From Xestospongia muta (lineage: Eukaryota > Porifera > Demospongiae > Haplosclerida > Petrosiidae): a stretch of 64,000 nt of DNA. Shown here one piece after another: positions 7,741 to 62,231 of the stretch. The notes below the pieces were generated by a model. It saw only the letters and a list, made by a program, of their open reading frames with translations. It had not been told where the DNA came from and made no database searches. Both the position numbers and the translations under genes were made by a program. Each line of letters opens with the position of its first letter. The first letter of the stretch is position 1. The stretch covers positions 2,594,144 through 2,658,143 of the forward strand of contig OY848924.1 in NCBI GenBank assembly GCA_963693285.1, written 5' to 3'.

Positions 7741-10216
7741 TTACCATATTATTATAGCAAAAATTACTACAATTACTGACACTGCAAACAAACCATCACA
7801 ATGACAATTAACTATATTAAAAGGATAATATTATGTTATCAGATTATAAAACATACTATTATTTCCCTGTTGAAATGTTCCTTCAATTTTAGCATTGGAT
7901 GCATGATAGTTTCCATGTTGAGTTCCAGTACTTCCTCTATTGTTTGACTCTATAGAGATAGAAAAGAAATAAATTGATTTGCTAAAGATAATTTAAAGAA
8001 GTCATTGATTACCAAGTACTTGTACAGTGAAAATAATTACTTGTAATTTGATCAAACAGACATTGGAGGTGTTTTATTAATATAACAAATTATAATATTT
8101 TGATATTTCTATAATTCTTAATAAAGTAATTTTAGGATAGTGCTTGAATGTCCATTCTTTAAAAATAAGGTTTAGTCATAAATTTGACCAGGATATTTGA
8201 TAAATTATTCATTTACCTCATTTTAAGCAATTTGATTAGTCAATTACACACAAGAATGGCTAATTAAAATACTCATCATTGTTCCATCAGTTATTATAAT
8301 AATAAACTTACCACTAAAATTGCTTTTGTCATCTTTGATGGACTCACAAACATTTTTACCAACATCTAAAGGACATAAATCACTATTATCAACACCTATG
8401 TTGTCAAAGACATAACAAATTAGTCATATAGTAGTCATTGTATAATCATGTACAGGTTAAATGATATGGATAATGTAACTTACCATCAGTTTGTTCATTA
8501 CTCATATCGTTGTCTGTTTGTACCACACCTTCTATAAAATTATAATATAACAATGAACATAGTATATACTAGTGTATATATAGTAAATATGAAATTTCTG
8601 TTGTAAAATTTTCACATGATAAATATTTATATACTGTATTTATAATTATTAGTTTTGTGGATCATGAACATAATTCTATTAATATGCTTCTACCATACTT
8701 GTATATAATTGACCAATCACATTGTTTTAAATGATGTAAATATATTTAACATCATAGAAGGTTCAACATTAATTTACAAATAACACATTATGACAGCTGC
8801 TAATAAGCTAATAGAAAAAACTTGATTTTAATCTTTTCCGGTGAAGCATTGGCTTTCAACATGGGAATACAGTTATCCTAAAATAGCTTCTCCTTTAATA
8901 ACAAATGTAAGATAAAGTCAAGTCAGTTAAGTCAAAAGCAAATGAAAGATAAAGTCAAAAGCTGGAAAGTCAAGTCAGTTAACTACATTACTGTTCTAAG
9001 AATAGGAAGTGATATTGAACACCAATGTGGTGCTGCTCAACATTTTGAAGAATAAAGTTAATTCATCATGATATAAACTGTTATACATATCACTATGTAT
9101 ATTTTTATTAGTTATCAACATTGTACCTGCAACACTTAAATCCAGCCAGTATATACTTATAACTTGGTGTGTATGTTAAAGGTACATTAACATAAGTACA
9201 TATTAAACTTGAGCCTGTCTTAATGCTAAATACATTAAGAATGTTTGCTTTAAAGTAAATAATATGGTCTACTTTCTCTAATGTATACATTATGTATTTA
9301 GACAAACATAATAACATCAACTTACCAGTAGTAGTCTTACTATTGTCAATGATAATTTTATCATCTTCTAGGGCAACTGCATACTTACCACCACCATAAT
9401 AATAATAATTATTATTAACTATATTAAAAAAGAATAATGTTATGTTATCAGATTATAAAACATACTTATTTGATTCTGTTCAAGTTTTCCTTGATTAAGA
9501 ACATAAGACATACTTTGTTGGTTTACATGATCATGAGTTACAGTACTGTTGTTTAACTCTATAGAGATAGTAAACAAATAAATTGATTTGGTAAAGATAG
9601 AGGACATAGTTTAAAGAAGTCAATGAATTGCCAAGTAGATGTAGAGTGAAAATAGTTACTTGTATTTCAATCAAACAGATATTAAAGGTGTTGCTTTTAT
9701 CATGTGTTAATATAGCAAATTATAATATCTTTGTTATTCTTTGTTGTTTGTTTCACTTATATTATGAGGCTACAATGAGACACTGTTACTACCTATAATA
9801 AAATATATACATAGAATCATAGCTTGATTATTAAAGATCTGTTCATTCTGAATTGTTTTAGTTTGACCACAGCTAAACATTCTAATAATCTCAGTCAACA
9901 TTTTATTGTCATGTTGTAAAGCTATGAAAAAATGTTTCCTAAAGTGACCTCCAATAGTGTTGACATGTGTAAATTAGCTACCTTTTTAGTGATCATGGAA
10001 TTATATAAAATTAGTAGATATATAAACAAAAAAACTAAATAATACTAAATAATAAATAAACTAAATTATTGGAAATATGACACTTTCTTGACATGTAGAC
10101 ATACCTCCAACATTGTATGTAATAGATGATGACATCTGTTTGTCAGGTTTGGTAACAGGGTTAATAAAATCTGTATTAATAAGTAAGTCATCTTTTATTG
10201 GCGGAGAAGGTATACT
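7741..10216 (-). CDS. Gene A tail exons 11-17 with hydrophobic C-terminus
   Basis: Seven small exons follow COR: 10216-10105 ([20 protein letters not shown]), 9558-9466 ([20 protein letters not shown]), 9418-9326 (starts [15 protein letters not shown]), 8531-8484 ([16 protein letters not shown]), 8365-8312 ([18 protein letters not shown]), 7949-7857 ([20 protein letters not shown]) and 7811-7741. The last one reads [18 protein letters not shown], then AIIIW and TAA, about 16-18 hydrophobic residues at the very end, as in tail-anchored membrane proteins. Exons 12 and 16 and the starts of 13 and 17 are duplicates, with matching introns. Exons 14 and 15 match gene B linker exons 45216-45169 and 47535-47482. 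The rest of the tail is low complexity and probably disordered. Confidence 0.65.
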
Positions 10217-13200
10217 CTATGTAGAGAAGATAAAACAATTTCATAGACACACTGTTAAGAGAAAATCAATGTAAACTTACCAAAGGATTACGTCCAGCAA
10301 AAATACTAAATCTGTTGAGATGTTCTCTTACAGAGAGGTGTGAAAAATCTGATAATGGATAGAGGGTCATGATCTCATTACATACTTCTTTTATACGTTG
10401 GACATAGTGATCTGGTAGTGGTTGATCTTTGTTGGTGTCAGTAAAGAGAGCTTTGGTCACAAGAGGGGGAATACAGAGGTATGGTTCCTTTTCACCGACG
10501 ACTAAATGGACAGGAACACATTTGCCAGTAGAAGAAGTAACGGTTTTTCTCATTAGTACTCCTTTAGCAACATTTTTCAAAGCATAGAGTATACGATTTT
10601 CGTGTTTCTTTTCCATGACATCGTTAACATTACCAGGTGGAATAATAAACTGTTTTGAAGTACAATTACAATGCAATTCTTTAAGTTTAAGTACTAGTTT
10701 GATGAGTGATGTATGGAGTTGATAACTTTTTATTAAACTGCAGTGAGATACTAGAACTGTAACACATCGGTTGGCTTCAGTAACCTCAACCATAACTTCA
10801 ATGTTATTCTCCTCTTTCCAATAAATACCATTTTTCCACATAGTACAGACTCGGTGCAATTCTTGGATCACTACATTATCAGTAATATCATCAGTTCCCT
10901 CAGGAGGACAAGAACAACAAGTATAAGCTAAGTGAAGAAGAAGAATATGGAGAAAACGCATGGAGAGAAATCGATCTGATTCAGGACACCATAGGCACCA
11001 ACCAAATCCATTTGTTGTTTCAAAGATTGAAGTGGGTTTGTCTTCTGTAATAAGTGCAGGAAAAAATAAAAATCTCTCCTTTTCACTATTAGGAAAGTCA
11101 TCAGATGGTAAATTCTTAGTGATACAAGAAGCAGCTTGAGAGTCCATTTCATGACAAAATTGTAGACTTGTTAAGAAACCGATCAACATATCTGTATTGT
11201 GTTTAGGGAAAAGGTTAGCTAGAGTACAGACAGTCATTATACCAGTATTAGTAGCAACTAGTTTACGCTCACGATCAATGCTTTTATTAAATAAGACACC
11301 ATTTACCTCAGTTAAGAGAGCCTTTTTGTCAATAATCACCCATGTGTTAGCCAGAAACAAAATGAGACCCTTGCTTCCAAGAATGGTCAAAAATTCTAAC
11401 ACAATGGATCGATCGGTCAAAAGACATGGCTCATTTAGTTCTATTAATTTGGAACATAGCTCATCTAGGCTAATAGCAACCTCCTCCAGCTGTTGAAGGT
11501 AAGAATTTAGACAGTGGCAGTGGTAGCTCATCTTGTCGTTTTTGTCCACAACAGCTTCACAGCTCTCTTTTAACTTCTTCATAAACATCTTTACACCTTT
11601 TCCTCCTGGTCGATGACAATCTATTGGCAAAAATCCTTTGTAATTCTGAAACCGAACAGCCAGATTTGCTACGTCATTTACCAAAGGCTGGAGGTCTTTT
11701 TCACTGGACAGTTCATCAATGTGACTTCCAAGGACAAGTACTTGACTTGAGTTAATTAACTTCATGCTTACATTTTCAACAAAGTTAAACCAAAAAAGCA
11801 GATCTTTCTCAATCGTCTTCTTATCATCAGTAAGGTTGCTTAAAATTGCAAAGACAGGTGGTGACCTCAACAAGAGAGTTTCCAGTACTGCATCATGGCT
11901 ACTGTAATATTCTGCATGTCCGGCAAAATCAAAAATTACAACATTTCCTATTTCCTGACTACGAATACTGTGGTACTCAATTCCAGTGGTTTGTAATACA
12001 ACACCTTCAACACATTCTTCTGGATCAATACGATTAAAAGACACCATGTTAGAACGATAAGAGATAACAGCAGCCAATGAACTTTTACCAGCTTCTGTCT
12101 TTCCACAGAGAAATATTTTAGCATATGATTCTGTGAGGTAGTCTCTGTGACATTGTTTGAATGGTTGAAACAACTTCAGTAATCGAAATCTATTACTGTA
12201 AGATGGTGGAATACAATCCAATGGCATTTGTTGATGATTATTTAGAGCTACTAGATAATCTGGATCTAGCTGGACATTATGTAAAAGGTAGTGTATAGTT
12301 TCTTCACTGCCACTTTGACAGGCTAAATGTAGTAGATTATTGCCATACTAAAATTAAAAAAGTGAAAATATAAATAACAACTGTATTATTATAAGTAATA
12401 TAATATATATTTCATGTGTAATATGATGACAAATAAATAGATCAACTTGGTTATAATAATTTTGAGGAATACTTTTGATATATAGTCATAAGAAAAAAAA
12501 CTAAATCTTTCAAAAGAAAGTCTTGTACATTATACAATGACAAGGAAGACTGACATGACAAATCCTAAAACAAAATATGTACATATATTTTAAACTATAT
12601 CAAAGACTACTTCTTTAACTAGTTAATAAAGATTACCAATACAACATACACAGTTATAGATTGTCATTGTAGTTTGATCTCAGAAGAAATACTAAATATC
12701 TAACATTTATTATTGTATTTACTAAATATGAAATGAAATAAACATTGTTTCATAAAAATTATGCATAAAAAATTTCTAATAGCATTGGCATTTTTAAAAC
12801 TATATTAATTTTAACAGCTTGATGTATATGGTATGGTGAATTATCACATTCTGGTACAGTATTTATAGGAAGAAGGAGTATTGAATATTACTATCTCTAC
12901 AGATTAAAGTGTCTGTGTCTACAATGTTACTAGAAGTGAGAATTGTAATGCTGAGATTTAAGTATCGTCTATTTAATTCCTCTATCTTTGTACATTCATT
13001 CAATTTCATATCAAGACTTAGTCTTTCACTTAAACAATCACTTTAAACCAGAACACTAGAAAAATCAGACAAGGATGATATCTTGACTCAGCATTTCCTC
13101 TAACATTCTCTATACTTCATGCAGTGACATCATAGATAAGATCAATTGTTATTTCTATGAGCAATAAACACTGATTCACTTGAAGTAAGCTGTACTGTTA

Positions 13201-16200
13201 TATTCCCCAATATTATATCAAAGCAATTAATAATAATTAAATTTCAGTTAATTGCTTTGATATAATATATATATCATAGTTAAACTGTTCCTATGGTAGG
13301 GAGTTCGTCATTTAAATTGGGCTTTAGTACTCTTCTAACTGCAAATGGATTTGGAGTATTGTTCTTAGAACATTTTTGTCAAAATATTTGAATTGATGGG
13401 CAGTCTGGGCATAAGACAGGTTGGTATCAATTTTGAATACCAAACTAAAATGTCATACATCAAACGAAATAATTCATAAGTAATTGTAATATGACTTACT
13501 ACATCTGTAGTATTTATGTCAGCTTGTCCCTCTTCAATTAATACCTTTAGAACATCAACATGACCCTTCTGTGCTGCATAATGTGCTGGTGTTTGTTCAA
13601 ACTAGAAAGAAAAGAGGAAATTTCATTCAATTACAAAAATTACATTAAGTATACTTATTGTATGGCTATGTCAAGTAATTATGACTATACCGCATTACGT
13701 GCAACTTTTATCTCATTTAACAGATGTATGAGTGATAATCACTGATAGAGCATAGTCAAGTTGAACTATACAATTTATCATTTATATCTAATGATGTCAA
13801 ATCCGACCAACGACAGAGACATAAGAAACACAGAAACTTACTAAGATATTAAATGGCTGTTAGGTTAATAGAAATATCACCATCAATAATAAACTAAGTC
13901 ATTTAGGTCACAAACAATTGATAATGATTATCAATTCTATTGACATGACAAATAAATATTCAAACATGACTTTATGACTACATCTAAAAATTAAAGAGTT
14001 TTAAGTATTTTAATTATTGAGAAGATGTTCTTTTCTGAGTTTAGAATCCTATTATAGCAGAAGTGTCTGTTAATGTAGGGACTGTCTGTTAAGGGAGGTT
14101 TCTTTGTAGAATATATCATGGAAGATATGTTTGTCACTGCTACAATTAAATTAAGTGAACATTTAAAATGTAATCATAATATTAAAAATTTTAAATAATT
14201 GATTATTTAACATTTCTTTCTTTAATAACAGGACAGTGGGTGTATCTAACATACTCCATGTGAGCTTAGTAGATATGAATCTTATTCACCACATCCACTA
14301 ACATACAATATAGTGCTAGCTTTTCTGCAGACATAGAATTATTCTTCAATAATCTCAAACTGTAGGCAAACAATTACATTATATGTTCAATATGTCATCA
14401 ATGTTAAAGTTTAATGTTTAAGGAGAACGGCTTAAATTACAGTAAAAACCAAAGATAATTTAGATTTGTTAAGGAGAACTCAAGTATATCATCAAAGTTA
14501 AGGGTTAAGGTTATGCTCCATCCATCCTATCGTCAGTATTACATTAATCATAGTAATTGTAATACTTGGTCTGAAAAAAAGAAGAGTAATGCTTTCTATT
14601 TGGATCTTGACTACCAGTATTATTAACAGCCACATCATTTTAACCATATCCATAGTAACAGCCAGATAACTTTATGTTAGTGCTTCATTTACATGTCTAG
14701 TGTATGATATACCAACTCTCTCAAAATTAAATGGAAATTGCTCACTATATACTAACTGTTCACTCTATACTTTAAGTTTAGTTTTGGGTACAAGCCTAGT
14801 AACAGTATAAAAGTATATTATATTGCTAACGATACAACTCTCCCAATCATCACAACAGTTTGACACAAACAGCATACCATACTAGTGAGACCTCTGTGAA
14901 CATGAACATGCTTTCAACTATATGTAATACTATTATAATAGACCACACCTACTGATACCTGACACTGACTATCATTGTTAACCCTTTATAACAAAAATTT
15001 GAACAACAGGTCAATGTAGAAACTACAAACAGCCACACCCATAACATTCTATATCTATTAAATACTGATTGAAATCTAGTAATATGTAGTAATCTCTACA
15101 AACAATATACGCTGACCTTGTCACAAATATTAGGATCTGCTTTGGACTTTAACAGTAGCTGTATGATTTTACAGTAACCTCCTTCTGATGCTAAATGTAG
15201 AGCTGTCTGCTGATACTAGAAGAAGTACACAAATATTTATTGTTGATTATAATAGCATTAAAGTTTATAGATTATTATAATATATACCAATAATAAAATG
15301 GACCACTTATAAAAATTTAAACAGGATTAAAATTCTAAAATTGTCCTAAGATACTTTTGGTTGCAGTGGTATTGCAGTTGATTTCATTATTATTGAAAAT
15401 TGGATATTTGATGTAGTTATTATAGAAAAATAAAGAATGGTACATTACTGGTTGTCATGTAAAGCATGCTAGTGAAAAAATCAAGGGATGAGTGATGCTA
15501 TATATCTGGATCATGATTACCAGTATTATTAACCCTTTATATACATTAGCCGTAAAAAACATCATGTAATAATGTGCATGTTAATATGGTAGACATATTA
15601 TTATGTACAACAAGATTGCTCTCTGTTTTAGCAACAGTCTTATAGCTAGCTGACTCGAATTTTATGTTAAATAACTATAGAGTATAGTAATATAAAACAT
15701 GTAGCCAATAGATATTTCTTGCTAGTAGTCAACCTGAGCGTGCCATTGAAATTGATGAATATTTTTCTTTTTTACGAATGTCCAAGAGATAAAAGTTATT
15801 TTCTCATCTTGCACATTCTAGCAAGCTATAAAGACTTGTTTAACTACCATAAAAGTATTTGTAACTGCAATAATAGTTAGAAGTTGTTACAAAATAATAG
15901 ACATGAGTATAACTGTTATAATGAACATACTTACATAAGCGCTCATGAACATTGAAAACTAGAAATGGTTTTTCAAGTATTCAATCAATTGAAAATGCCT
16001 AAATGATGCTGCAGGGCAAGGTAAAGCTTAGCATAGCAACAAAAATGCTCTAACACAACAGAAACGCAACTTTCTGTGATATATCTTTAGGCAATAGTTC
16101 ATTTAGTATTAATAGACACACCCACAATAATTACTTTTACATATAAAGGGTTATAACAACATCACTATTCTAACCATCATAACTCTTAGAAACACCAAAT

Positions 16201-19200
16201 AATGTCAACTTTGTATTTGATTTACAAATAGTGGTACTTCTGTGGATAGCATTATTCATTAACTCTTTGATGGGAGGGGCAAATTAATTGTAATCACATC
16301 TGTGGGTAACTACTTTATCAGTGATGCTTTTCAACAATAGGAATGCTTTAAAAGCTTATTATAACAACTAAATGACGTTTACAGATAGCATCATAGTTCG
16401 GACCACCCTGGTGGATGGAATTTTGGATCCGTGTGTATCAAAGGGATTACCTGGTATAATGTAAGTCCACAAACTAAGTAGACTTCAAAGGTTGGGTGAA
16501 CAGAATTTGATAATAGAAATGTTCATGTTATTTGTGGGTTGACATTCACTGACCATGAATATCATTTACCAAAAACAACTTTAAATCAATAAGTACAAAT
16601 CTACTAGTTTACATATAATAGTCTTTTGATAAACTTGAATTTGGCAAAAGTTATACCAATTACCCGAGGCTAGAAGTAACTTTTTCAAAATATCAAACTA
16701 GGCATGTTACTTAAAGGTTTGGGTAAAACATTTCCTCATTCATTAACATTGTATGATAATGTCAACAAGAATAAATGACAGAGAAGTCTTATGGAAATAG
16801 GAAAAGAGATATTAATCTGCATTCTAAATGGAACAATGTCTACAAGGGTGGGTGGGGTTAGTTTTCTTAAATGTTTATAACTGATCTCCATTGTTATAGA
16901 ATATATTACTTTAAAAAGTAAACACTAACAAACAACAGTAATTTATTACTATTTTATCAGTGTACTAACCATGTCATAACCACCATGATGAACATTGACA
17001 TTAGCACCTAATTTAAGTGATCGCTTTACTGTTTTTAAATCCCCATTTTCAGCTGAAGTCAGTAAGACATCCTGTTAAAATAAATAATATATTATAACTG
17101 TGACATGTACCCACATATAATTAGGTCATGTTTATAATATATCGTAACATATAAGATCACTATGTCCATGTCATCATATACAGTAAATATATTATTACAT
17201 TTATCACTTACATTTATAACTTGATCCATATCTCTTGCTCCAAAATAACGTAAGAGCTCAACAATGTTATCATGACCATACCAGTATGCTATATGAAGTG
17301 GACTATGCCCCCACTATAAAATGAAATAAATTGTTTAATAATAATAATAGATTAAACTTGTTAAAGTGGACATATATAGAAATATACATACACACATGGT
17401 CCAAAACAACCCTAGGCCTGATCATGATCAGTTTTACTGCATTTTCCAATCATATTAACCCTTTCTGCATCATGTTCAAATTATGTAATTTTAAGTCAAT
17501 GCCACACGTTTTTTAAGAAACTGATGTTTATGACAGGGTGGCCATTATCTCTTTATTGCTGCTTTTCTAAATAAGAATAGTCATCTCTATACTTAAAGAT
17601 AAGTTCGTGTGGCATCGCTACAGTTGCAAAACAATTCTTTTTCCATTTGAGAAGTAACATGAAAGCAATATGGAATGTTAGTCATAACACATACACAATT
17701 GATTATAAAATGACTTATCTCAATCTATGGTAGCTAGAAGAGCTGTCTAGGTCATAAATATGTAATATATGCTTAGTAACTTAGTTCTACACATGAAACA
17801 CGTGTTCAACACTTATTTAGGTATTTGTTTTTTAAAACCTACATTCAAATCATGAGTTCTTACAAAACATAACATCATTAGAATCACTACCGTCACTGAC
17901 AAGAGTTTCTGTGTAATTATATTCTATCATGTATATTATTTGTTTGCACACCTTCAAATATATTACTGAACTCTAACTCTTCACAGTCACTAAAACTTCT
18001 TCCTATAACATCATCTGTAGTTAGTGCTTTGGCCACCACTACCTATAACAGGTGGAGCTAGTGAAGCTGTTAATTGTGAGTGGGCTGTAATGGATGGGCA
18101 TTGGCAGTGAATAACTTAAGTAGTATTGCAATAACATAGAATAAGTAAACTAGGAAGACTATCAAACTTGTGTCAAGAAAACCATAGGGAGGTTAGTGCA
18201 TTGACACATATATGCGTAGCTGGCACTGGTATGAAATTATTTACCAACGTATAAATGCGTTTTTGGTATGCAAAGGGTTAATAATTGGTTATAATACCAA
18301 ACAACAAATGAGAGCTACTTTGTCCCATCCAGACAAATTACATTGAAAATTAGTTACATGGCATGAAAGGTTAACTTAATTGTATTCATTACATTGGCTT
18401 TGATCTATATCCTGTCCTACTAGACAGGTAGTACTACATATATGCACATGTAGTAGAGATAATAAATGAGATATAAACTATATACAATACACACTGACCT
18501 TGTTATAAATATTAGGATCTGCTTTTAACTCTAGCAAAAATTGGACTACCTCAGTGTGACCAAAACCTGAGGCTAAATGTAAAGCTGTATTATTATCCTA
18601 AATATAAAACACAAAAGAATGTGAATGAAAATATGATTACTACAATATTTAAAATACTACAGTAAGAGAATATAAGTAAGTCTAGTAATCAGTTATAGCA
18701 TAGTGAAGATATCACAGCAATGTTAAACATCATACTATAGAGTTAGTAACAGTTTAAAATATATGTGTACATAAATGAAGTATTGACTTTGTTGATGACA
18801 GAACTAGTCTAATTCCTTGTCATTTATAGCAATACAACAACATTGTATATTGTGGTATCTATATATAGTAAGTTCATAACATACAGTAAACCTATACACT
18901 GCATTTTGGATTCTTATTGGCTTTGAGTATGACACTTGCCTTTAAACTGCTGCTATCTACACACAAACTATGTCCTAGTGTTATCATCATCATATTGATT
19001 CCTATATTACAATGTCATGACATATATAGTATAGCTCCTTAGATTTTTAATATTTTATCACAAAATATTATTTTTAAAGTACTACATCTTGTATATCTGA
19101 CTTGTCATGAACATTTTATATTGTTTATAAATGAACTTATTAATTGTCAAATTAATGAGCTACCTTTTATTACAAAAGAGTCATTTATTATAATAAGGTA

Positions 19201-29136: not shown

Positions 29137-29186
29137 TGTCAGGAGGCCTGGCAGCTCTTGGCTGGTACTGTTAAGTTGATCTAGTT

Positions 29187-40305: not shown

Positions 40306-40341
<36 letters not shown>

Positions 40342-40343
40342 AG

Positions 40344-40454
<111 letters not shown>

Positions 40455-41040
40455 TAAGTTATACTAAACACTTTATAACATAAACTAGCTAGTGTCATTG
40501 AGCATTAGTCTTGAGGCCAGATGTTCTGCAAGGGGAGGGAATGTCTGGACAAATCTGCATTCAAAGCTAGTCTTCTGCACTGACTTTATGCAGACCAATC
40601 AAATTGGTTGTGTCATGTGATTGCACAGGACCACGCCTGCAAGTTAATTAAAATATGGTTGAAGATGCAATTTAATTCTTTTACTGTCAGATTTCACCTC
40701 TCGATAGACTTCTCAAGTGCACACTCACAAACTATAAAGTAACATTTAATTGTTGAGGTGTTAAATAAAGTACCACTAGGTACATGTGTAACAGGAAGTC
40801 ATGTGATCTTCAATTATAATAACATTCATAATTGTTCAATTTTGAAATGTGAGTTTGTCCAGATGTTACCTTCCCTTGTATAACATCTGGCTTTGAGACT
40901 CCATGTACATGTACTGTTATCTACAATGTATATAACCTGTTCTTTACTATTAATTCTTTGGTGAATTGTGTCATTGTAACTAAAGCATCCATTCTTTTAA
41001 AGAACACTTAGTAACAAGTATGATATAGATTATAAATAAT

Positions 41041-42535: not shown

Positions 42536-43264
42536 TATGTTCCATCATCCTTTGAAAGACTATATGTAGTAGGAGACACTTTGTGGATGACTGGAATGTT
42601 TAATTGTATTCATGACATAGTTAATTGTATTCACATGTACACAAACTTCCAAATATGGTCATGAGCTAGGCAATAGTTCCTTCTTCCTTAGTTATAAATT
42701 ATTGTCTATGTAAACTGTGTTCAGTTATGTCCATGTAGGATGTTTGATAATATAACATTGTTAGTTTATATATTACATGATCTCTTATTTACTATAGATT
42801 AGTGAGTCAGAGACAACTGCTGACAAATTTGCTATCTCATGTCAGAAATATCATGATCCTATTCCTTTCTTTCGTTATAATCCTCAACTAATAGAGGGTG
42901 TGTCTCCTGGAGAGATTGATGACTGGAAAATAGTGGAACTAATACTACATTTCACATTTTATGTTATTCATATAATAATGATTATTTTGTCATGAATTTT
43001 AACAAATTAACAACTTTAACAATAAAAATTAACAAAAAAACAGCAGCAAACATAACAAAAGAAATTAAGTGCCTAGACTATAAGTTTTAAATTTTGTTTG
43101 GAAGAGGCAAATATCAAAGTAAAAAATGTAGAGGACTGGAGACTAAGTAGGTGGAGTTAAGTCTGCAGTACATAGAAAGTAAAGACATTTGTCATATACA
43201 GTAGATTACTCAATTATAACATCATTAAAGACTCAGTTATACAAATATTAATTATCTAATATAA

Positions 43265-49500: not shown

Positions 49501-52500
49501 GTCAGCAAGGAGTTTTGATTTGTTGACTACAATCCAACTATTACACACTATTTTATTACTCAGAAACAGAACAAGACCTTTGTCACTGAGAATTGACAAG
49601 TAGTCAACCAAAACTGTTTCATCTGAAGGGAGGGATGGATCATCAAGAGCTTTTAGGCTTTCAATAAGCTCATTAAAGCTAATAGCTACTTTTTGTAGCT
49701 TTTGGAGGTAGGCATAATGCACATGGCAATAATAACTAATGCTATCAGACTTATCAAGAATAGCCTTACAACTTTCACGAAAGTGAACAATGAATTCAGG
49801 AAAACCTTTTCCACCTGGGCGATGACACTCCATGGCAACAAAACCTCTATACACTTGTTTTCGGATGGCATCTATAACATGATGATTGACATGCAACTTC
49901 AATTCATCATAATTGCCGGTAAATTGATCAGCATAGCTTCCAACGACAATTACTTGAGAAGGTTTTGTTAAATTAGCACAAACATTTTCAATAAAGTTAA
50001 ACCAGTAATATAACTGTTTCTTGAAGTACTTAAAATCTTTAGTTGAATCTATCACTATTGTAAAAACTGCAGGAGTTCTCAACATAAGATTCTCCAGCAC
50101 AGCTGCATGACTACTATAATATTCTTGATGACCAGCAAAATCATAAAGAATAATATTGCCAACTTCATGACTACGAACATTATGATAGTTAATACCAGCA
50201 GTTTCCAATTGCACACCTTCAACACATTGAGAAGGGTTGTAGTGATAATCAGCAGGTTTATCAGCACGATATATAATGCATTGAGCTAATGAACTCTTTC
50301 CAGCTGTCATGTTTCCACAAAAAAATACTTTTCTATATGAATCAACTGGATAGTCTTGACGACTTTTCTCAAATGGTTCAAACATCTTCAATATTTTAAA
50401 TCTGTTTGGATCATACAGTTGAATTTCTTCTAGTGGTGTATTCTGATGATTGTTACGAGCAAGTGGATTGACTTTTCCAGTGTGAAGTAGATATGAAATC
50501 ATGTCTACTTTACTGTTTGCACAAGCAAGATGTAATGGAGAGTCTCCACTCTGTAAAGAATGAAGAAATACAATTATATTTATCATTAATACAATCTAGA
50601 TCATGCATTTATGATAGATAAATAATGTTATATAATCTCCTAATAGAGTAACAATGAAGATTTTGCAAACAATTTTGTTATTGAATGTTAATTTCCCTTA
50701 AAATATTGATATTATAAAATCAATATCACATTGTTAAAGTTAAGAAACATATATACATTGATAGAAATATCAGTGTAGTCATGATCACAAACATAGAAAG
50801 AAGGACAAAATCCTAGAATTTGAAACCAGTATATTAGATATTAGTCTGTGCTTGCTTCTTATATGCCTATTGTTTGATTTAAGTGTTAATGTTTAAAAGA
50901 CCATAAGAAAAATAATGTTTTTAACTTGCTATACCTAGACAACATGACGAAATGGCAGTGATGTAGTTTGTTATTTAGTGACGTTTCACAAGTGGCAGTT
51001 TATGGAGACTCTGTTCTTTTGCTAAGCTATATATTTTGTACACTCAGAGTTTATAACACTTGTTAAATCTTCACTAAACCAAAGTATGCAAGTAGATAGA
51101 AGAGGAAACTTGAGGAAACTCATCAACCAAGTCACTTAAATGTGCAAGTAATCGTTCACATGATAACAATTATTACTTTTCAAATAGGCATGGACACAAA
51201 GATCTTAGCAGACCAAGATAAGTGAAAATGGCCATAACTTGAGAATGAAACATTCTTAGGAAAATGTCCACATTAAAAATGTAGATAAATATTATTGTAC
51301 ACACAGTAATTTTTGAGAGTGATACTCTACCAAATAATTACTGGTACTTTTATAACAGACAGACACAATGACAGACAGACTGACAAAGTAATGCAATTTT
51401 GCCCACACAGTGAGTTGTGAGGGTTAATAAGAAGAACATCACATTGTGGATATTGTTTGTAAAAAGCACTAATAATACTAATAATTGTCTCTCTTTATAC
51501 ATACAAATATAAAACATATTTCATCAGTTTATAATTAATATACTTTAAATTATCACTAGTATGTTATCATAGTAATAGTTGCTATGACAACAACTATTAC
51601 AATGTTAATGCTGTTCAGTAATGTCTATCAATTGATAACTTAATAACTATAATTAGTAAGGAATATGTTTATAACAGGCCACACCTACTGATAGCTCCCA
51701 ATAACTATCCTAGTTAATCCTTTACTTGTGTAAAAATTTAAAGGACGAATCAACATAGTTCTAATAACCACACCCACTACTCTTTAAATCTTATTTATAG
51801 TGATAGGTAATATCATTGTTAAGTATTAGCATCATAGCCAGATATGAACAAATTCACTATTTATCCAGTATATCATGCTAACTATGATTTTACATAGAAA
51901 TGAACAAAATGGCTTGTCATATGTCAATGTACTTTCACCTCAAATTGATGATCTATTTAGAATATATGAAGTTCCTAAGAATGCTATTACCCAATTATAA
52001 GAAAATCAAGGTAAAGTGTATTATAATAGAGGATCAAAAACTATTGAAGCCACAAACAGACAGGTAAATCATAAGAGTATAGACAAGTTTATATGTACAC
52101 GTGTAAAGGGAAAGATTAATAACCTTTACACAGAACAGTCAAATTTTGCTATTAATTATTCATAACTATTAACAAATTGATCCATTAATAAATATTGTCA
52201 TTGATTGATATAATGACAACAGGTTATGTTTGACACATTGCAGGCAAAAATCAAAATTTGAATTTGATTATTATTCTTGGAATATCTTTTGTCAAAAACA
52301 TGTTATCAAAATATTGGACAGTCTGGATATGAGTGAGGTAGATATCAATATTGAAGACAATATTAAATGTCATACTTCAAAGGAATAACTTATAAATAAC
52401 TATAATGTGACTTACTTTATCTGTAGCATTTACGTCAGTGTGTCCCACTTCAATTAATACCTTTAGAACATCAACACGTCCCTCCTGTGCTGCATAATGT

Positions 52501-55500
52501 GCTGGTGTTCTACCAACCTAGAAAACATAAGAGGAAAAGTTATTCAATTACAAAAAGCACAGGAACTATCATACAATAAACTATATAGTCAATATAACAG
52601 TCATCAATAGAGATAAACATAGCTATCGTATTATCATGTCAAACCTGACCAATGACAGGGACATAAAAAAACACAGAAACTATCTAAGATATTAAATGAG
52701 TGTCAGTTTATCATAAATATTATCATCAATAATAAACAAGATCTTTTAGGTCATAGAATTATCATAACTACCACACTTATAATGATTATCAATTCTATTA
52801 ACATAATATAAATATTTAAACTTGACTTTATGATCAAATTAAAAATGTATATAGTTTCTAAGTATTATAACCATTGAGATGATATTCTATGGAGGGTTCA
52901 ATGTAATATATATTATTATGAAAGTTTTTAACTCACTACACCTAGACAACATGCCCAAATGGCAGTAATGTAGTGGGTTACTATGTAATGTTTTGCAAGT
53001 AGCAGTTCATTGAGTCCCTTTCTTTTGCTAAGCTGTAATTTACATGAGTCAAGGAGAGACCCAGATAAGACACAATGCTACATGACATTACTCTTTGTCC
53101 ATCAGAATTAAGGGATAACTGTGTATTCTCAATGTAACCACAAGTTTATTAGAATAGCAATGTCTGTTACATGTTAATATATTCAGAATATAAGGGAGGT
53201 TTAATATCTAGTGAGTAACATATATCCATGGATGACATAAGCTTATTTAACATCCATAATGTATGCTCTATCCTTCCTATTGTCACTATGAAGTACATGT
53301 AATGAAAATAACAAACTACAACTACCACAGATATATTAATTAATTTATAAAAGTTTAATCATAAGAAACAACTGGGACTACAATATATATTAATGCAAGT
53401 ATTAATAGTATAACAATTATGCCTGGTCTGAAAGAAGGGATAATCAACACTTTATCTTTGGACTATTATTACTACCACTTTTATAAATAGCTACATCACT
53501 TTTAACCAAACCTCTCAATAACAACCATATAACTTGTTGTACCTGATTTACATGTTCTGTGTATGGTACATCTACTATCTCAAAATTAAAATGGAATGGC
53601 TGACTACTGGCTGTTTTCTTATAAGAGTTTAGGGTTTAGGCTATGGCTGCAAGTTTAGCAACAGTATAAAAGTATAGTATAATGATACAATGCCTACAAT
53701 TATCAGAACAGAGTTTGACACAAATGGCATATCATAATAATTATTAGTGGGACCTATTTGAATACCAACACGTTTCAAACTATATGTACTACTATTATAA
53801 CAGGCCACACCTACTAATACCTGACACTGACTATCTTTGTCAATCCTTTACTAACAAAAATTTGAACAGCAAGTCGATGTAGAAATTACTAATAGCCACA
53901 CCCATAACATTCTATATCTATTAAATACTGATTTAAATCTAGTAGCATGTAGTAATCTCTACAAACAATATACACTGACCATGTCACAAATACTAGGATC
54001 TGCTTTGGAATTTAAGAGTAGCTGTACAATATCAAAGTAACCTCCTTCTGATGCTAAATGTAGAGCTGTTTTCTGATACTAGAGGAAGTACACAAATATT
54101 TATTGTTGATTATAATACCATTAAATTTTATAGACTATTATAATATATACCAATAATAAAATGGACTGGATATTAAAATTTGAACAGGATTAAAATTACA
54201 AAAAACATCTTAAAATGCTTTTGTTTGTATTGGTATTACAGTTGTTTTCTCTATTATTGAAAACTGCATATCCATAGAATTTAATAATAGAACTGTATAT
54301 GTCATATGTTGGCTGACATTCACTGACCATGAATATCATTTACCAAAAACAAGATTATATCAATAAATACAAATCTACTAGTTTACAAATAAAATCTTTT
54401 GATAAATTTGAATTTGAAAAAAGCTGTAATAATAGTGCAAGGCTAGTAGGATGTTTGTCAAAACGTCAAAATAGGCATATTAATTAAAGGTCTGGGTTAA
54501 AAATTCCTTCTTTATTTACATTGTATGACAATGTAAATAGAGTAAATGATAGAGAAATCTTATAGAAATAGGAAAACAGAGATTAAACAATGTCTATAGG
54601 AGCGTGTTGGGCTAAATCACCTAAGTGCATGTAATTGATCCCTTTGTTATAGAATATATTACTTTAAAAAGTAAATACTAACAAACAACAGTAATTTATT
54701 ACTATTTAATCAGTGTACTAACCTTCCATAAACCACCATGATGAACATTGACATTAGTACCTGATGTAAGTGCTAGAGTTACATTTTCTATATCACCATT
54801 TTCAGCTGAAGTCAAAAGTAAGTCATCCTGTTAAAATAAATAATATATTATACTGTGACATGTACCCACATATAATTAGGTCATGTTTATAATATATCAT
54901 AACATATAAGATCACTATGTCCATGTCATCTATACAATAAATATATTATTACATTTATCACTTACATTTATAACTTGATCCATATCTCTTTCTCCAAAAG
55001 AACATAAGAGCTTGACAATGATATCATGACCATACCAGTATGCTTTATGAAGTGGACTATGTCCCCACTATAAAATGAAATAAATTGTTTAATAATAACA
55101 ATAGATTAAACTTGTTAAAGTGGACATATATGGAAATATACATACACACATGGTCCAAGACAATCTTAGGACTGATCAGGTTTATTATTAATGCTTTATA
55201 TTGTTTTACATATTAGGTTCCAGTCTTATTAGTAATTGTTATATATCAAACAACAAATGAGAGCTACTTTCTCCCACCCACACAAATTTCATTGAAAACT
55301 AATTGTATTGCAGGAAAAGGTTAACTTAATTGTATTCATTACATTGGCTTTGATCTATACCCTGTCGTACTAGACATGTAGTACTACATATATGTCATGT
55401 AGTAGAGATAATAAATGAAATATAAACTATACACAATTTATTATAACAGGCCATATCTACTCATACCTGACACTGACTATCTTTGTCAATCCTTTACTAA

Positions 55501-58500
55501 CAAAAATTTGAACAAGAGGTCAATGTAGAAATTACTAACAACCACACCCATAACATTCTACATCTATTAAATACTGATTTAAATCTAGTAACATGTAGTA
55601 ATCTCTACAAACAATATACACTAACCTCATCAAAAATATTGGGATCTGCATTGGAGTTTAACAATAGTTGCACTATATCACAGTAACCTCCTTCTGAGGC
55701 TAAATGTAGAGATGTTTTCTGGTACTAGAGGAAGTACAGAAGTATTTATTGTTGATCATAATAGTATTAAATTTTATAGAATATTAACATATACCAATAG
55801 TAAAAACTAACACTTACTAAAATTTAAATAGGATTAAAATTACAAAAATTATCCGAAGATGCTTTTGGATGTATTGGCATTGCAGTTGTTTTCTTTATTA
55901 TTGAAAATTGGAAATTTGAAAAAGTTATCATAGAATAATAGAGAAGAATGGCTCATTACTAGATGTTTCTCCTATAGGGTTTAGGCTTTGGCTACAAGTC
56001 TAGTAACAGTATAAAAGTATAGTATAATGCTAATGATACAATGTCTATAATCATCAAAGCAGTTTGACACAAATGGCACAATATACTAGTGAGACCTCTG
56101 TGAATACCAAGATGTTTCCAACTATATGTACTGCTATTATAACAGGCCACACCTACTGATACCTGACACTAGCTATTTTTGTTAATCCTTTTACTAACAA
56201 TAATTTGAACAATGAGTCGATGTAGAAATTACTTACAGCCACACCCATAACATTCTATATCAATTAAATATTGATTTAAAACTAGTAACATGTAGTAATC
56301 TCTACAAACAATATACACTGACCCAGTCAGAAATGTTAGGATCTGCATTAGAGTTTAACAATAGTTGTACGATATCATAGTAACCTCTTTTTGATGCTAA
56401 ATGTAGAGCTGTTTGCTGAGACTAGAGGAAGTACACAAGTATTTATTATTGATTATAATAGCATGAAATTACATAGAATATTATAATATATGCCAATAAT
56501 AAATGGAACACTTATTAAAATTTAAATAGGATTAAAATTACAAAAATTGTTCTAAGATGCTTTTGGATGTATTGGTATTGCAGTTGTTTTCTCTATTATT
56601 GAAAACTAGAGATTTGAAGTAGTCATCATAGAATAATGGAGAAGTATGTCTTACTACTGGCTGTTTTTCCTGTGCTCAAGGGTTTGGGTTTAGGTTTTAG
56701 GTGCAAGTCTAGTAACAGTATAAAAGTATAGTATAATGTTAATGATACAATGCCTACAATCATCAGACGAGTTTGACACAAATGGCACAACATTTTAGTA
56801 GGACCTCTGTGAATACCAAGATGTTTCCAATTATATGTACTATTATTATAAAAGGCCACACCTACTGATACCTGACACAGGCTATCTTTGTTAATCCTTT
56901 TCTAACAAAAATTTGAAGAACAGATCAATGTAGAATATGCTAACAGCCACACTCATAACATTCTATATCTATTAATACTGAATCTAGTAGCATGTAGTAA
57001 TCTCTACAAACAATATACACTGACCAAATTGTCATAAATATTGGGATCTGCATTGGAGCTTAACAATAGTTGTACGATATCATAGTAACCTTCTTTTGAT
57101 GCTAAATGTAGAGCTGTTTGCTGACCCTAGAGGAAGTACACAAGTATTTATTTTGATTATAGTAGCATTAAATTTTATAGAATATTATAATATATATCAA
57201 TAATGAGGTGGACCACATATTAAAATATAAACAGAATTAAAATTACAAAAATCATCTTAAAATGCTTTTGTATGTATTGGTATTGCAGTTGTTTCCTTTA
57301 TTATTGGAAACTGGAGATCCATAGAATTTAATAATAGAAATGTTCATGTCATTAGTGGGCTGACATTCACTGACCATGAATATCATTTACCAAAGACAAT
57401 ATATTATATCAATAAATACAAATCTACTAGTTTACAAATAAAATAACAGTCTGTTGTTAAACTTGAATTTGGCAAAAAGTTGTACTAATAGTGCAAGGTT
57501 AGAAGCTTGTCAAAATGTCAAAAAAAGGTATATAAATTAAAGGTCTATGCTAATAAATTCCTTGTTCATTAACAATGAATGACAATGTAAATAGAGTAAA
57601 TGATAAAGAAGTCTTATGGAATAAGAAAAGGGAGATTAAACAATCTTCTAGATGAAACATGGTCTACTACAGAGAGGGTGGGGCTAAATCTCTTAAGTGC
57701 CTGCCTGTAATTAATCTCCTTTGTTATAGAATGTATTACTATAAAAGTAAACACTAACAAACAACAGTAATTTATTACTATTTAATCAGTGTACTAACCT
57801 TCTTAGCATGACAAACATTGACATTAGCACCTAATGTAAGTGCTAGAGTTACATTTTCTATATCACCATTTTCAGCTGAAGTCAAAAGTAAGTCATCCTG
57901 TTAAAATAAATAATATATTATAACTGTGACATGTACCCACATATAATTAGGTCATGTTTATAATATATCATAACATATAAGATCACTATGTCCATGTCAT
58001 CATATACAGTAAATATATTATTACATTTTTTCACTTACATTTCTAACTTGGTCCATATTTCCTACAAATAAACATAAGAGCTCAACAATGTTATCATGAC
58101 CATACCAGTATGCTAGATAAAGTGGACTATGTCCCCACTAAAATGAAATAAATTGTTTAATAGTAACAATAGATTAAACTCGCTAAAGTGGACATATATA
58201 AAAATATACTTACACACATGGTCCAAAACAATCTTAGGACTGATCAAATATATTTTATGTAAGAACATATTAATGTTTTATATATTGTTTTACATATTAT
58301 GTTTATTATATTTTCCACTCATATTAGTAATTGTTATATACGAAAAACAAATGAGAACTACTTTGTACTATCCACAAAAATTACATAGAAAATTAATTGC
58401 ATGGCATGAAAAGGTTAACTTAATTGTATTCATTATATTGGCTTTGATCTATATCCTGTCCTACTAGACAGGTAGTACTACATATATGTACATGTAGTAG

Positions 58501-61500
58501 AGATAATAAATGAAACATAAACTATAAATAATACACACAGACCTTGTTATAAATATTGGGATCTGCATTTGACTGTAGGAGAAATTGGACTATCTCAGTG
58601 TGACCATTAACTGAAGCAAAATGCAAAGCTGTATTATCATCCTAATAATAAAACAGCAAAGAATGCAAATGAAAATATGACTACTACAATTTTTAAAATA
58701 CTACAATAAGAAAATATAACTAAATCTGGTAATCAGTTATAGTATATAGTGAAGATATCACAGCAATGTTGGACATCATACTATAGAGTTAGTAACAGTT
58801 TAAAAATATATGTGTACACAAATGAAGCAGTGACTTTGTTGATGACAGAATTAGTCTAATCCCTTGTCTATTACAGCAATACAACAACATTGTTTATTGT
58901 GGTATCTAGATATAGTAAGTTCATAACATAGAAGTCAAAATATATATTGAACTGTGGATTCTTATTACCGTATTTCTCTGAATTAGTGCCTATGGGTGCT
59001 TACAATTCATTTGAAATTTAAATGGGGTGGGCACTTACACACGATTTTTCAAAAACTGCTTCTAATAAATGCCCACTTATGAAGGAACACAACAATCTCA
59101 TGATAGATTTGCTTTTGCTATGATGAAGGGCAAATTGACAGTTGGTCATATCCCAAAAGAAATTTCAAAGATATGTTGCTTCTTTCTTTACAAGGGGGAA
59201 CAATACACTGTATAGTATTGAGCAAAGCAGTTTAGAAGTGCCTTGTTAGCTGACCTTTTCAATTCCAAATGGAACAAAAGACAACAAAACTTAATATCTA
59301 AACTTAGAAAATTACTAGCCTAACTTATTTCTATTTCTCTTTGCTCAACAGATGATAATAATCACAATAACCCCAAATCTAAAGGGGTGACATTTTCTGT
59401 TAAAGACAAAATATGAGATGGGCACTTACATAGAGGGTGGGCACTTGCTTGGAGTATACAGATTTAACGTGTATTAAGTCATTTTAACCACACCTAAATA
59501 TTTATTATGAACTTATTATGTACTGTGGCTTTGAGTATCATACTTTGTTGATAATCATATTGATTCCTATATTACAATGTCATAACACATACAGAATAGC
59601 TCCTTAGAGTTTGAGTATTTCATGACAAAAATATTATTCAAGCATTAAATCTTGTATATCTGACATCTCATGAAAATATTATATATTTTAAAATAAAATT
59701 ATAATTGTGAAATTAATGAGTTATCCTCTACTAGAAAAGAGTCATTTATTATAATAAGATATAACTTACTCTAATTTGGTCTTTAGCATTCACATTAATA
59801 TTGTTCTTTAAAGATTCTTTCACTATATCTACTAGTCCTTTTGCAGCAGCTGCTAACAATATTTCATCCTAAGAAATCACAATAAGTAAATACAGATAAT
59901 GTACATCATAATAAATACAACAGTATATACTAGGAATACACATGTGCATAAATGTCACATGACCCAGATTTCATCTACCAGAAGCTCCATTATTAACTAT
60001 GTATAAAGTACATGACCATGAACAGTGTTATATAACTATATCCAACATATTAAAGTACACTTGATTTATCTGAAATGATTTCAAAACATTAATACTAACA
60101 TTCACTAATAGATAGATAAAGATCTCCTTTATGACAGAAGATTTACAGTGCTACCATAGGGTTAAGATGGGTAGCTAGTCAAAGATAATTTAGTCATTGT
60201 TTAGAAATACATTCAATCCAGTTTAATCTTCTTCTCAAAAAAGTCTTATAAACCAATTGACACAAAAACTAAAGACTAAATAGAAGCCTGGTAAATATGA
60301 TATACTAAAATCAACTTAGTAAACCATTTTACAACTTGAATTTTATTAGTTATGAATAAACATTCCTGTGGTTACATGTTCTGAAACCAATTAATTACAT
60401 ACCTAAACATGACAGATATACAAACATTTAACTAGTACTAAGACACTCAGTAATATATCTTGACTTTAATTAATGTAATTGTAAATGTTATATGAAGTCA
60501 ATTGCTAACACTGTTGTATCTTAGTGTTATATGATATGTTTTAAACTAATGATTTAATTATAGTTACTAGCTATAGAAACTAATATTAAAAGAAAGGTAG
60601 TGTGGAGATAAACAGAACATAGGTACATAACAATTATATCAGTAAAGGTCATAATAATTATCCATTAAATGTATTATTATGTGTATAAGGACTTGGGCAA
60701 TAAATAGGAGACATTATAATGTAATTATGTACATGTACATAATATCAATGTAATAATTAAACACTTGAGCTATACTAAATATTGACGTCAACTACATACA
60801 TGTATACACTCACATAATCAGGAGTAGCACCTGCATTTTCTAAGAACTGGACTATTGTATTATGACCTTTGATATATGCTATAGTATGAGCTCTTTTACC
60901 CTATATAATAAACAAATATATTTTAATACATGAAATACAATCAAATTCCATATCTGTGTATACACAATACAAGCCATTACTTTACATTGACATGTATCAT
61001 TAATTAAGACATTACTATCACACAATATAATGGATTTCATTCAATTAAATTATAAAACAATATTAAAAATACTACATGTAAAGATCGTGTATGTTATTAA
61101 TTGTGGATACTAATTCAGTAACTTTAACAAATAGAATAATAATTAATAAATTGTATAAATGTTGAAGTTTTTGATTAATATTTAGATGTGGCTAAAATGA
61201 CTTAATACTCACTAAATCTACATAATTTGAATTAATTACTTAAGTTAGTAGACACAAATTATAACAGTAGGTTAAAGGGAAATTAATAGGATCTTACCTT
61301 AAAAAGACATTTCAAGTTTGCTCCTTTCTGAAGGGCTTCTTTGACTTTCTCTAAATGTCCGTCATTAGCAGAGTCCCAAAGTTGATAGTCCTATGTAATA
61401 ATAAAACAAGTCATTACATTTAAAACTAGTAAATCATACACAACTACATGTATTATATGACACTAATGAAACTATAGGACAGGTCAAATACAGTTACCAC

Positions 61501-62231
61501 ACTAACTAATAATAAACAGTTTAATGATCTTCTTTCCATTCCTTTGTTGCTAATATTTATTTGATATGTGATATGATCAAGTAATAGTAATAACTGGACA
61601 TTACTCAAGCATTAAAGTGAGTACTATGAACTCATAGAGACAGGTCCATAGAATGAAAGTAGATACAACCATTGTTTACATAACTAATAGTATTTATCAT
61701 GTGGTAATGAACATGATCAGTTGTAAATTAATAAATATTAATAGTGTGAATAATTATCACAGATAATCAGATATAATGTCACTCAACTAAAGTCTATAGG
61801 TTGTAATGAACTATCACTTAATGAACAATTTGAGTTATGAAGAAGCTGTGTAGTCTATTTCCAAGTAATCTTTTCTATTTATGTAAAAAGAAGTACAAGA
61901 ATTAAGAGAAACAATTTGACTGTTTAGGTAGTTCCCAGTTCTCCACTTTATTAGTAATACTTTATAACATTATCAAAGAACTTATTACCTGTAAAATATT
62001 CAATAATGGCAAGTGATGCTGAAATAAATTTATGAGGAAACATTAACAATATACTGTAATAGATTGAGTGTGACAGCCATTTTGCCATGCCTCTCTCTAC
62101 ATATAAACCATACCATACTTAATAATAATATGTAATGTATTGATTGTACACTAACACATGTAGTATACTGAATCAGTTACTAATATACTTACAATTCTCT
62201 GTTGCTCTCTATCTGATAGTTGAGTTGCCAT
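43265..62231 (-). CDS. Gene B: ankyrin-ROC-COR-Death-CARD-like protein (1,577 aa)
   Basis: My exon model, 5' to 3': 62231-62193, 61390-61298, 60900-60814, 59868-59770, 58641-58543, 58137-58039, 57897-57799, 57126-57025, 56421-56323, 55724-55626, 55067-54966, 54827-54723, 54078-53980, 52517-52416, 50550-48478, 48323-48236, 48135-47863, 47662-47600, 47535-47482, 47250-47177, 46773-46704, 46102-46019, 45881-45831, 45527-45471, 45216-45169, 44718-44645, 43924-43855, 43596-43265. The 28 exons sum to 4,734 nt, stay open and end in TAA (43267-43265). The ankyrin part ends within the big exon (residues 442-1132), which holds ROC (P-loop near 520) and COR. The Death-like part is about 1162-1252 and the CARD-like part the last 110 residues. 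Ankyrin-ROC-COR-Death matches DAPK1 without its kinase. The domain mix suggests a GTP-gated scaffold for apoptosis or innate immune signalling; that role is inference. Confidence 0.75.
43855..47662 (-). CDS. Gene B linker exons 18-27, Ser/Lys/Glu-rich
   Basis: Ten small exons (48-84 nt) form a low-complexity linker of about 214 residues. Exon 46102-46019 has a bipartite nuclear-localisation-like cluster (PAKRKRSISPSTSKKLKQ). Exon 45881-45831 adds CKRKHSSN and exon 45527-45471 PKTKKST. The pair 44718-44645 and 43924-43855 duplicates the pair 47250-47177 and 46773-46704 (QHSTNELSSEHKADTLPSD in both) with near-identical introns. Most introns are phase 1; each duplicated pair is 1-0-1, so it can be added without a frame change. 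Confidence 0.7.
47863..48323 (-). CDS. Gene B exons 16-17: Death-domain-like region
   Basis: Exon 48323-48236 encodes VLSSPCLTQDEIIKISKDCL and ends in phase 1. Exon 48135-47863 encodes about 90 residues with the Death-fold pattern: CDLLNLLSKICDKWYIIGVC, LGIENGDLESLKSSN, VLQLWMERMTKPVTWNTILK, then a last helix ending near GIEKFLK. Spacing and the W...TW...L..L pattern match Death domains of DAPK1, ankyrins and similar proteins, which form six-helix homotypic contacts. Gene A has a counterpart to the first exon (10216-10105) but none to the second. Confidence 0.65.
48478..50550 (-). CDS. Gene B exon 15: last ankyrin repeat, ROC GTPase and COR
   Basis: The 2,073-nt exon (691 codons) starts in an ankyrin repeat (SGDSPLHLACANSKVDMISY). 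ROC motifs are the P-loop CGNMTAGKSSL, switch II DFAGHQEYYSSH and a G4-like GSYADQ. COR-type blocks follow (SWIVVNKSKLLADVNGILFN, FGFGWCLYCPNPFQFLSVRF). It ends GQNPL before donor GTAAGTT, as gene A's ends RNPL. The start is set by the acceptor at 50551-50552; an upstream in-frame Met at 50586 is intronic. Confidence 0.85.
52416..62231 (-). CDS. Gene B exons 1-14: short N-terminus and ankyrin exons
   Basis: Exon 1 (62231-62193) encodes only MATQLSDREQQRI. Thirteen phase-0 exons of 87-105 nt follow, each with about one ankyrin repeat, such as DDNTALHFASVNGHTEIVQF (58641-58543). Compared with gene A, B has extra exons: copies of A's exon 8 type at 57126, 56421, 55724 and 54078 (all near QQTALHLAS or QKTALHLAS), and a second pair of the A exon 6 and 7 types at 55067-54966 and 54827-54723. 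The order is 6-7-8-8-8-6-7-8-9. In the intron at about 55438 the sequence switches from exon-5/6-type intron to exon-8-type intron, marking one duplication joint. The long intron 50551-52415 holds nothing recognised. Confidence 0.85.
53100..53970. other. Gene B intron 13, no exon seen
   Basis: This region matches gene A 14200-15115 in outline (gccacacctactaatacctg and nearby words). No splice-site-bounded coding exon or recognised element was found. Confidence 0.4.
58968..59461. mobile_element. Probable MITE in gene B intron 4
   Basis: The region starts CCGTATTTCTCTGAATTAGTGCC, and the reverse complement of its end reads CTGTATACTCCAAGCAAGTGCC, a gapped but recognisable terminal inverted repeat. 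Repeated gggcacttac words lie near both ends. Gene A's matching intron (about 18905-18925) has the flanks joined (ggattcttattggctttgag). The insertion in B runs to about 59523, so some extra sequence lies outside the inverted ends. Family not identified. Confidence 0.5.
61989..62018 (-). CDS. Possible 30-nt microexon in gene B intron 1
   Basis: On the minus strand a good acceptor (TTATTTCAG) is followed by 30 nt encoding HHLPLLNILQ and a donor GTAATAAG. It is phase 0 on both sides, so it could be included between exons 1 and 2 without breaking the frame. I left it out of the main model because gene A has no counterpart. Confidence 0.3.

Follow-up and report, generated by a model that had tools for sequence, protein, structure and literature searches.

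How do two genes that share a sensor-like front and a G-protein core come to end in different modules? This question is raised by a 64-kb stretch of the genome of the sponge Xestospongia muta (C8:2594144-2658143, here called the window; the genome comprises 158 Mb in 28 contigs), in which two genes on the minus strand, A and B, each encode ankyrin (Ank) repeats followed by a ROC-COR unit. Gene B closes with a Death-like and a CARD-like exon, and gene A with a hydrophobic segment. A preliminary description of the window read the pair as one GTP-gated sensor wired to two outputs. The pair is real, and the family around it is larger than that description saw: A and B belong to a very large, mainly tandem family, for which our counts give a lower bound, and their order of modules recurs in it more than chance would allow. 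As part of the explanation that we favor overall, the different endings of A and B probably reflect a family whose copies trade parts.

We located exons by hand, by comparing A with B and by their GT/AG borders, joined them, and translated the result; all splicing is predicted from genomic DNA. The gene B model comprises 28 exons, from an ATG at 62231 to a stop at 43265, in a single open frame of 1577 residues with every internal junction GT/AG; that of gene A comprises 18 exons, from 29136 to 7519, and 1261 residues, again with every junction GT/AG. In gene B, exon 1 with the start codon (62193-62231) is followed by the Ank-repeat exons 2-14 (52416-61390; each 87-105 nt and phase 0-0; Pfam Ank_2, 2.7e-70 for the whole protein), and one long exon 15 (48478-50550) then carries the last Ank repeat together with ROC-COR. 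Exon 16 (48236-48323) fills the interval between COR and Death and is present in the fetched B-type relatives. The closing exons are as previously described, with a Death-like exon 17 (48135-47863, phase 1-1) and, after a linker, a CARD-like exon 28 that includes the stop codon (43596-43265). Gene A has Ank exons 4-9 (13500-19307; Pfam Ank_2, 1.3e-41 for the whole protein), an Ank repeat plus ROC-COR in exon 10 (10281-12347), and a hydrophobic exon 17 (7811-7745) spliced to exon 18 (7549-7519), which supplies the last ten residues and the stop codon; the end of the gene, earlier placed at 7741, is accordingly corrected to 7519. The claim that A and B correspond exon for exon holds in kind, since each has the shared Ank exons and one long ROC-COR exon (44.6% amino acid identity over 700 columns), but not in number: between exon 1 and the ROC-COR exon there are 13 short exons in B and 8 in A.

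The identity of the core is supported by Pfam Roc, which gene B matches at 35.2 bits, above the cut-off of 27, and gene A at 18.3 bits, below it. Both contain what we take to be the G1 and G3 motifs (GNMTAGKS and DFAGH in B, GKTEAGKS and DFAGH in A). A homologue search with residues 500-1577 of B returned nine proteins, whose best alignments cover at most 59% of that stretch. All six of those scanned (P0001-P0006) match Roc, one of them just under the cut-off. The Pfam scan gave no COR match in A or B; among the six relatives, three have one below the cut-off (P0003, COR-B, 23.8 bits, and P0001, COR-B, 18.4 bits, cut-off 27; P0005, COR-A, 17.8 bits, cut-off 35.3). The three homologues inspected (P0001-P0003) end just after COR. 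The same scan of A and B gave no kinase match and no NACHT match at E <= 1 and no LRR match, in a genome with 98 NACHT matches.

The last exon of B has a CARD fold, and exon 17, less firmly, a Death fold. A fold search placed each as a six-helix death fold, with Death domains nearest to exon 17 and CARDs nearest to exon 28. Exon 17 scores 20.4 bits against Pfam Death (cut-off 22.6; E 5.5e-4), 30 of 39 aligned members match that model at E <= 0.1 (best 1.8e-4), and a related exon on C6 reaches 25.8 bits; a PDB sequence profile search for Death found nothing, its best rows being lysine-specific demethylase 1 at E 0.31. Exon 28 is called CARD by fold only, because Pfam CARD gave no match for it; the model does recognize 11 of the 53 aligned members at E <= 0.1 (best 0.01), and the PDB profile and Pfam sequence searches yielded nothing firm. 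We set aside EnY2, which 12 of the 53 members match (best 0.0048), because the fold search led to CARDs. Of the profile and structure checks proposed for the tails in the preliminary description, the fold search favored both modules, exon 17 fell below the Pfam Death cut-off, and Pfam CARD was negative for exon 28.

Gene A was correctly described as having a hydrophobic ending and neither a Death nor a CARD exon. The hydrophobic segment covers residues 1236-1254 of 1261, within about 30 residues of the C terminus, with a Kyte-Doolittle mean of 2.81 over 19 residues; the next best, and the only other stretch above 1.9, starts near residue 681, inside ROC-COR (2.01). Such a tail fits a tail-anchored membrane protein, and we predict that it inserts into a membrane. 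We also considered a Death or CARD exon concealed in the 3' end of A. A tblastn search with the B CARD, B Death, and A-type Death sequences against window positions 1-10281 gave E 0.047 at best, none of the matches listed in the genome searches for the CARD and Death exons lies there, and relatives carry a Death-bearing stretch that A lacks.

The family extends far beyond the window. The ROC-COR exon of A has at least 66 genome matches, mostly on C8 (65 of 387 candidates were scored), two of which look like fragments of a single gene. Apart from A, these comprise 24 whole and 2 partial matches at 82-88% identity and 23 at 61-66% on C8, 11 at 74-77% on C3, and 5 others. The CARD exon has at least 150 matches (150 of 230 candidates were scored); the best 72 share at least 62% identity, and 67 of these lie on C8, mainly at 0.2-4.7 Mb and mostly on one strand. 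For the Death exon of B we found 19 matches at 63% or more, B included, all on C8, along with many weaker ones. The DNA of the last 530 bases of gene A has 25 matches, of which 17 (A included) span at least 370 bases at 73% identity or more, on C8, C9, C7, and C1.

We next tabulated the order of modules. The table was built from the matches listed on the same strand, within a reach of 12 kb for ROC-COR and 8 kb for Death; it types A-type ROC-COR, Death, CARD, and anchor, and its absences and gene borders are firm only at fetched loci. The commonest ending, A-type ROC-COR followed by Death and then CARD, accounts for 48 of the 66 A-type matches listed; in 3 the order is Death, CARD, anchor, and the remaining 15 fall into twelve small classes, in which gene A of the window is the sole match going directly to the anchor alone. 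Among the 31 B-like Death exons listed, most of them on a single chromosome, 18 lead to CARD (one of these to two CARDs), 10 to an anchor, and 3 to neither, and one of the 31 sits behind an A-type ROC-COR; all eight fetched loci with a B-like Death exon have a B-type ROC-COR. CARD and membrane anchor thus behave as alternative endings across the family, and two different C-terminal modules do occur on an Ank-ROC-COR chassis.

The fetched loci agree. Each of the six loci fetched around other CARD exons repeats the order ROC-COR, exon 16, Death, linker, CARD, with identities to B of 87-88% in ROC-COR, 55-73% in Death, and 83-92% in CARD. Five of the six also have Ank exons and a whole ROC-COR match, and the sixth (L035) has no Ank and a ROC-COR match only from residue 187. 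Among the A-type loci, Death and CARD are both present in L039, L040, and L041; in L042 we found CARD but no Death, and L043 ends within an apparent Death exon. In the B-type loci L044 and L045 we found Death and an anchor but no CARD, and in A-type L046 exons for Death, CARD, and anchor follow one another. We therefore disfavor the possibility that the last exons of B are a separate gene, because the order from ROC-COR to CARD recurs in relatives; as far as genomic order tells, these exons belong to B.

Gene A departs from its class through a deletion. Its DNA is 92-93% identical to that of L039, L040, and L046 over ROC-COR and exon 11 (10105-10216, an exon common to A-type relatives whose next exon is Death), down to about position 10003. 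Past this point the three relatives run on for 516, 536, and 529 bp, respectively, each with a Death exon inside, where A has 0-19 bp, and similarity, now 75-80%, sets in again at positions 10004 to 9781. A single deletion of about 0.5 kb at 10003-10004 on the minus strand thus removed the Death exon from gene A. That exon is phase 1-1 in B, and in gene A exon 11 and exon 12 are still in frame. Gene A is atypical of its class: the common A-type ending is Death then CARD, and only A, its Death exon deleted, runs straight to the anchor.

Could gene A then be a decaying copy that lost Death and CARD and whose anchor ending has no role? Its uniqueness among the A-type matches listed, the deletion itself, and an intron filled with transposon-like frames all speak for this. 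The ratio of nonsynonymous to synonymous substitutions per site (dN/dS) points the same way: it is 0.57-0.67 for ROC-COR of A with four near relatives and 0.37-0.49 among those relatives, which weighs against reading A as a healthy gene. Yet every one of the 18 exons has an open frame and GT/AG borders, and the anchor DNA recurs at 16 further sites, with the hydrophobic exon and its donor site present in L044 and L046 (tails read by eye), so the anchor tail looks like a module that is kept. We regard decay as a rather unlikely account of gene A.

A and B are not the products of one simple recent tandem duplication. Their ROC-COR exons differ by dN 0.47 and dS 2.24, the latter nearly saturated, while six matched Ank exons differ by dN 0.163 and dS 0.169, with dN exceeding dS in two of the six taken singly; these exons are short, and where B has duplicates the closest partner was used. 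The ROC-COR units diverged anciently and the matched Ank exons are close, so these parts have separate histories, and the view of A and B as simply one sensor with two outputs is not supported in that form. Free exchange of fronts right up to the last Ank exon was borne out only in part: around that exon (a comparison that left out A-type L043), six of the seven B-type copies share 84-95% identity among themselves and 73-79% with A of the window, and the seventh, L038, is 72-76% identical to all.

The tails appear to have been exchanged as well. The best match of the 3' half of A is L044, a B-type anchor gene (9380-6988, 90.7% identity); it also matches the A-type L046, which has a CARD as well (8652-6999, 87.4%). 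Gene B is 90.8% identical over 51000-48218 to the same L044, an anchor gene without CARD; its linker and CARD (46405-43168) match the A-type gene L040 at 93.5%, and its CARD end (44127-43168) matches the B-type gene L033 at 97.6%. Downstream of the genes the two 3' flanks converge again, at 97.1% identity (6596-7008 behind A, 42537-42949 behind B). The same linker-CARD DNA even occurs in a different gene, L047 (C6:969493-977492, 101-3947), at 93.5% over 705 columns; this gene has COR-A at 31 bits (cut-off 35.3), Death at 25.8 bits (above the cut-off), no Roc match, and a caspase exon upstream. Together these matches indicate that the tails occur on several gene classes.

As an alternative to exchange between genes, one gene may hold both a CARD and an anchor as alternative last exons; A and B would then be opposite extremes, each having lost one of the two. 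In 6 of the 66 A-type matches listed, a CARD and then an anchor precede the next A-type ROC-COR, and L046 has the full series at a fetched locus. Nearly all tail introns are phase 1, and either ending would thus keep the frame. Against this, at unfetched loci the anchor behind a CARD could be another gene's, and most CARD genes have no anchor among the matches listed. We consider alternative last exons possible as a general explanation, on the doubtful side. At 516-2354 of L046, a CARD exon with a stop codon has anchor exons downstream, possibly alternative last exons. A combined model may be put forward tentatively, that of a combinatorial receptor system in an early animal lineage in which three separately recombining cassettes (the Ank array, the ROC-COR-Death core, and the CARD or anchor tail) are shuffled through phase-matched introns in about 100 mostly linked genes, some of which would choose by splicing between soluble assembly and a membrane-held sensor.

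Within type, ROC-COR is under purifying selection, with a dN/dS ratio of means of 0.43 in both the eight B-type and the six A-type copies. The ratio is 0.47 for CARD (19 copies; dN > dS in 8 of 169 pairs), 0.57 for B-like Death (16 copies; dN > dS in 21 of 119 pairs), and 0.64 for A-type Death (4 copies).

What might the endings engage? The genome has 106 caspase domain matches in addition to its NACHT matches. Among the 59 Death relatives typed, 17, on C12 and C4, precede a NACHT exon on the same strand by less than 4 kb (73 of the 98 NACHT rows used); these NACHT-adjacent Death exons share 40-56% identity with the Death domain of the A-type ROCOs. In a cluster on C6, six of eight Death matches have a caspase exon 2.2-3.4 kb downstream. 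These NACHT exon clusters with Death exons upstream are found at 2.8-4.9 Mb on C12 and 8.3 Mb on C4, and the caspase cluster at 0.80-0.91 Mb on C6. Relatives of the ROCO Death module thus adjoin genes that look like Death-NLRs and Death-caspases, which makes homotypic signaling plausible.

We infer that this is probably a tandem, exon-shuffled family of NLR-like intracellular receptors in which ROC-COR stands in place of NACHT. The variable Ank array, with one repeat per phase-matched exon, would sense a ligand. ROC-COR, a dimerizing G protein (PMC6337361; here and below, statements on published systems refer to excerpts of the sources cited), would act as the switch, its dimer changing on GTP binding or hydrolysis. 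Death and CARD would then be exposed and would seed homotypic assembly with caspases, NLRs, or adaptors that carry Death or CARD. An anchor tail would keep the sensor at a membrane, together with Death in B-type genes and without it in gene A. The Death-less, anchored gene A may be a decoy, a regulator, or a decaying copy. Fronts, ROC-COR-Death cores, and tails would be exchanged by recombination and deletion in phase-matched introns.

The family might instead serve a non-immune role in cell-cell recognition or developmental cell death. The proposed sensing is itself a prediction, and DAPK1, the nearest known ROC-COR-Death protein, regulates cell death (PMC6337361). The scale of the family, its tandem layout, the variation of its Ank exons, and the kinship of its Death module with those beside NACHT exons fit receptors that face changing ligands, though these need not be microbial. 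We think a non-immune role distinctly unlikely.

The remaining features lie around these modules. In gene B, exon 1 resembles that of A, and the low-complexity linker (exons 18-27, 43855-47662) has a basic stretch (KRKRS...KKLK) in exon 22 (46102-46019) and an internal duplication of exons 20-21 and 26-27 (47250-46524 and 44759-43673) just ahead of the CARD exon; both copies match one and the same stretch in relatives. The linker of gene A (exons 12-16, 7857-9558) has exons that all start in phase 1. Exon 1 of A (28858-29136) opens like that of B and holds an expanded acidic 10-residue repeat, encoded by a 30-bp tandem repeat (28867-29126, 8.7 copies, 94% matches) that is not in B. With the N-terminal, Ank-like exons 2-3 (28000-27908 and 27510-27388), it lies past a transposon-filled intron; since these three exons were found at 29.1-27.4 kb, we rejected a start near 20 kb. 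The shared 3' flanks contain a plus-strand kinase-like exon (CDK-like by eye) at 5362-6208 and 40145-40986 (90.9% identity). Between and inside the genes, at 20400-37000, are transposon-like frames labeled by eye, some in intron 3 of A (27.4-19.3 kb): a nuclease-like open reading frame with a MYB/SANT-like one on the opposite strand (21082-22992), reverse-transcriptase-like pieces (24795-25734 and 34665-36912), zinc-knuckle/gag-like frames (26460-27359), and a MULE-like transposase (31386-32352). The G+C content of the window is 28-39% in 4-kb steps.

How new is this arrangement? In DAPK1, Ank repeats precede ROC-COR. Members of the DAPK1 group are animal ROC-COR proteins with a C-terminal Death domain and no LRR (PMC6337361). 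Gene B shares this Death domain and gene A lacks it; unlike DAPK1, A and B have no kinase in the Pfam scan, add a CARD or an anchor, and belong to dozens of linked copies rather than one gene. The earlier statement that a Roco protein with Death and CARD parts is not a known arrangement was too strong, as ROCO proteins with CARD and death domains are reviewed for the placozoan Trichoplax (PMC4104024; PMC11378527, section 14). There are at least 17 such genes, which likewise join ROC-COR to death-fold domains, with CARD and death domains in the same or in separate proteins; the partners named in the text are LRR, TPR, AAA, and Ras-like, unlike those here, and the excerpt gives no Ank-ROC-COR-Death-CARD order, anchor alternative, or shuffling (PMC4104024). 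The sea-anemone novel gene NG3 encodes kinase, Death, Roc/COR, SH3, and TIR and thus also combines Roc/COR and Death in one animal protein; unlike A and B, it has a kinase and TIR, with neither Ank nor CARD mentioned in the excerpt (PMC5094078).

Shuffled ROCOs also have precedents. Brown-algal LRR-ROCO genes, candidate immune receptors, resemble the sponge family in having one exon per repeat unit and exon shuffling (PMC11378527), and Ectocarpus ROCO loci are clustered, with C-terminal parts that resemble ROCO or transmembrane proteins (PMC4104024). Unlike the sponge genes, the brown-algal ones have LRR rather than Ank, number 9 to 47 per species, and are mostly dispersed, with no death fold mentioned in the excerpt (PMC11378527, section 14). 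A further parallel is offered by the sponge NLRs, with Death-NACHT and CARD-NACHT forms and large expansions, which likewise unite Death or CARD with a nucleotide switch and repeats (PMC12909245); A and B differ in matching neither NACHT nor LRR and in having death-fold modules at the C terminus. In the literature searched, which held few subscription papers, we found no animal ROCO that unites Ank, Death, and CARD in a single protein, and no published precedent for dozens of linked genes with the order Ank-ROC-COR-Death-CARD and an anchor tail as an interchangeable ending.

If our interpretation is correct, animals without adaptive immunity would build a large receptor family around ROC-COR, a switch known mainly from LRRK2, and this family would have the same death-fold outputs as NLRs. 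With so many natural combinations of sensor, core, and tail, one could test directly how ROC-COR affects Death and CARD assembly and what difference the anchor makes.

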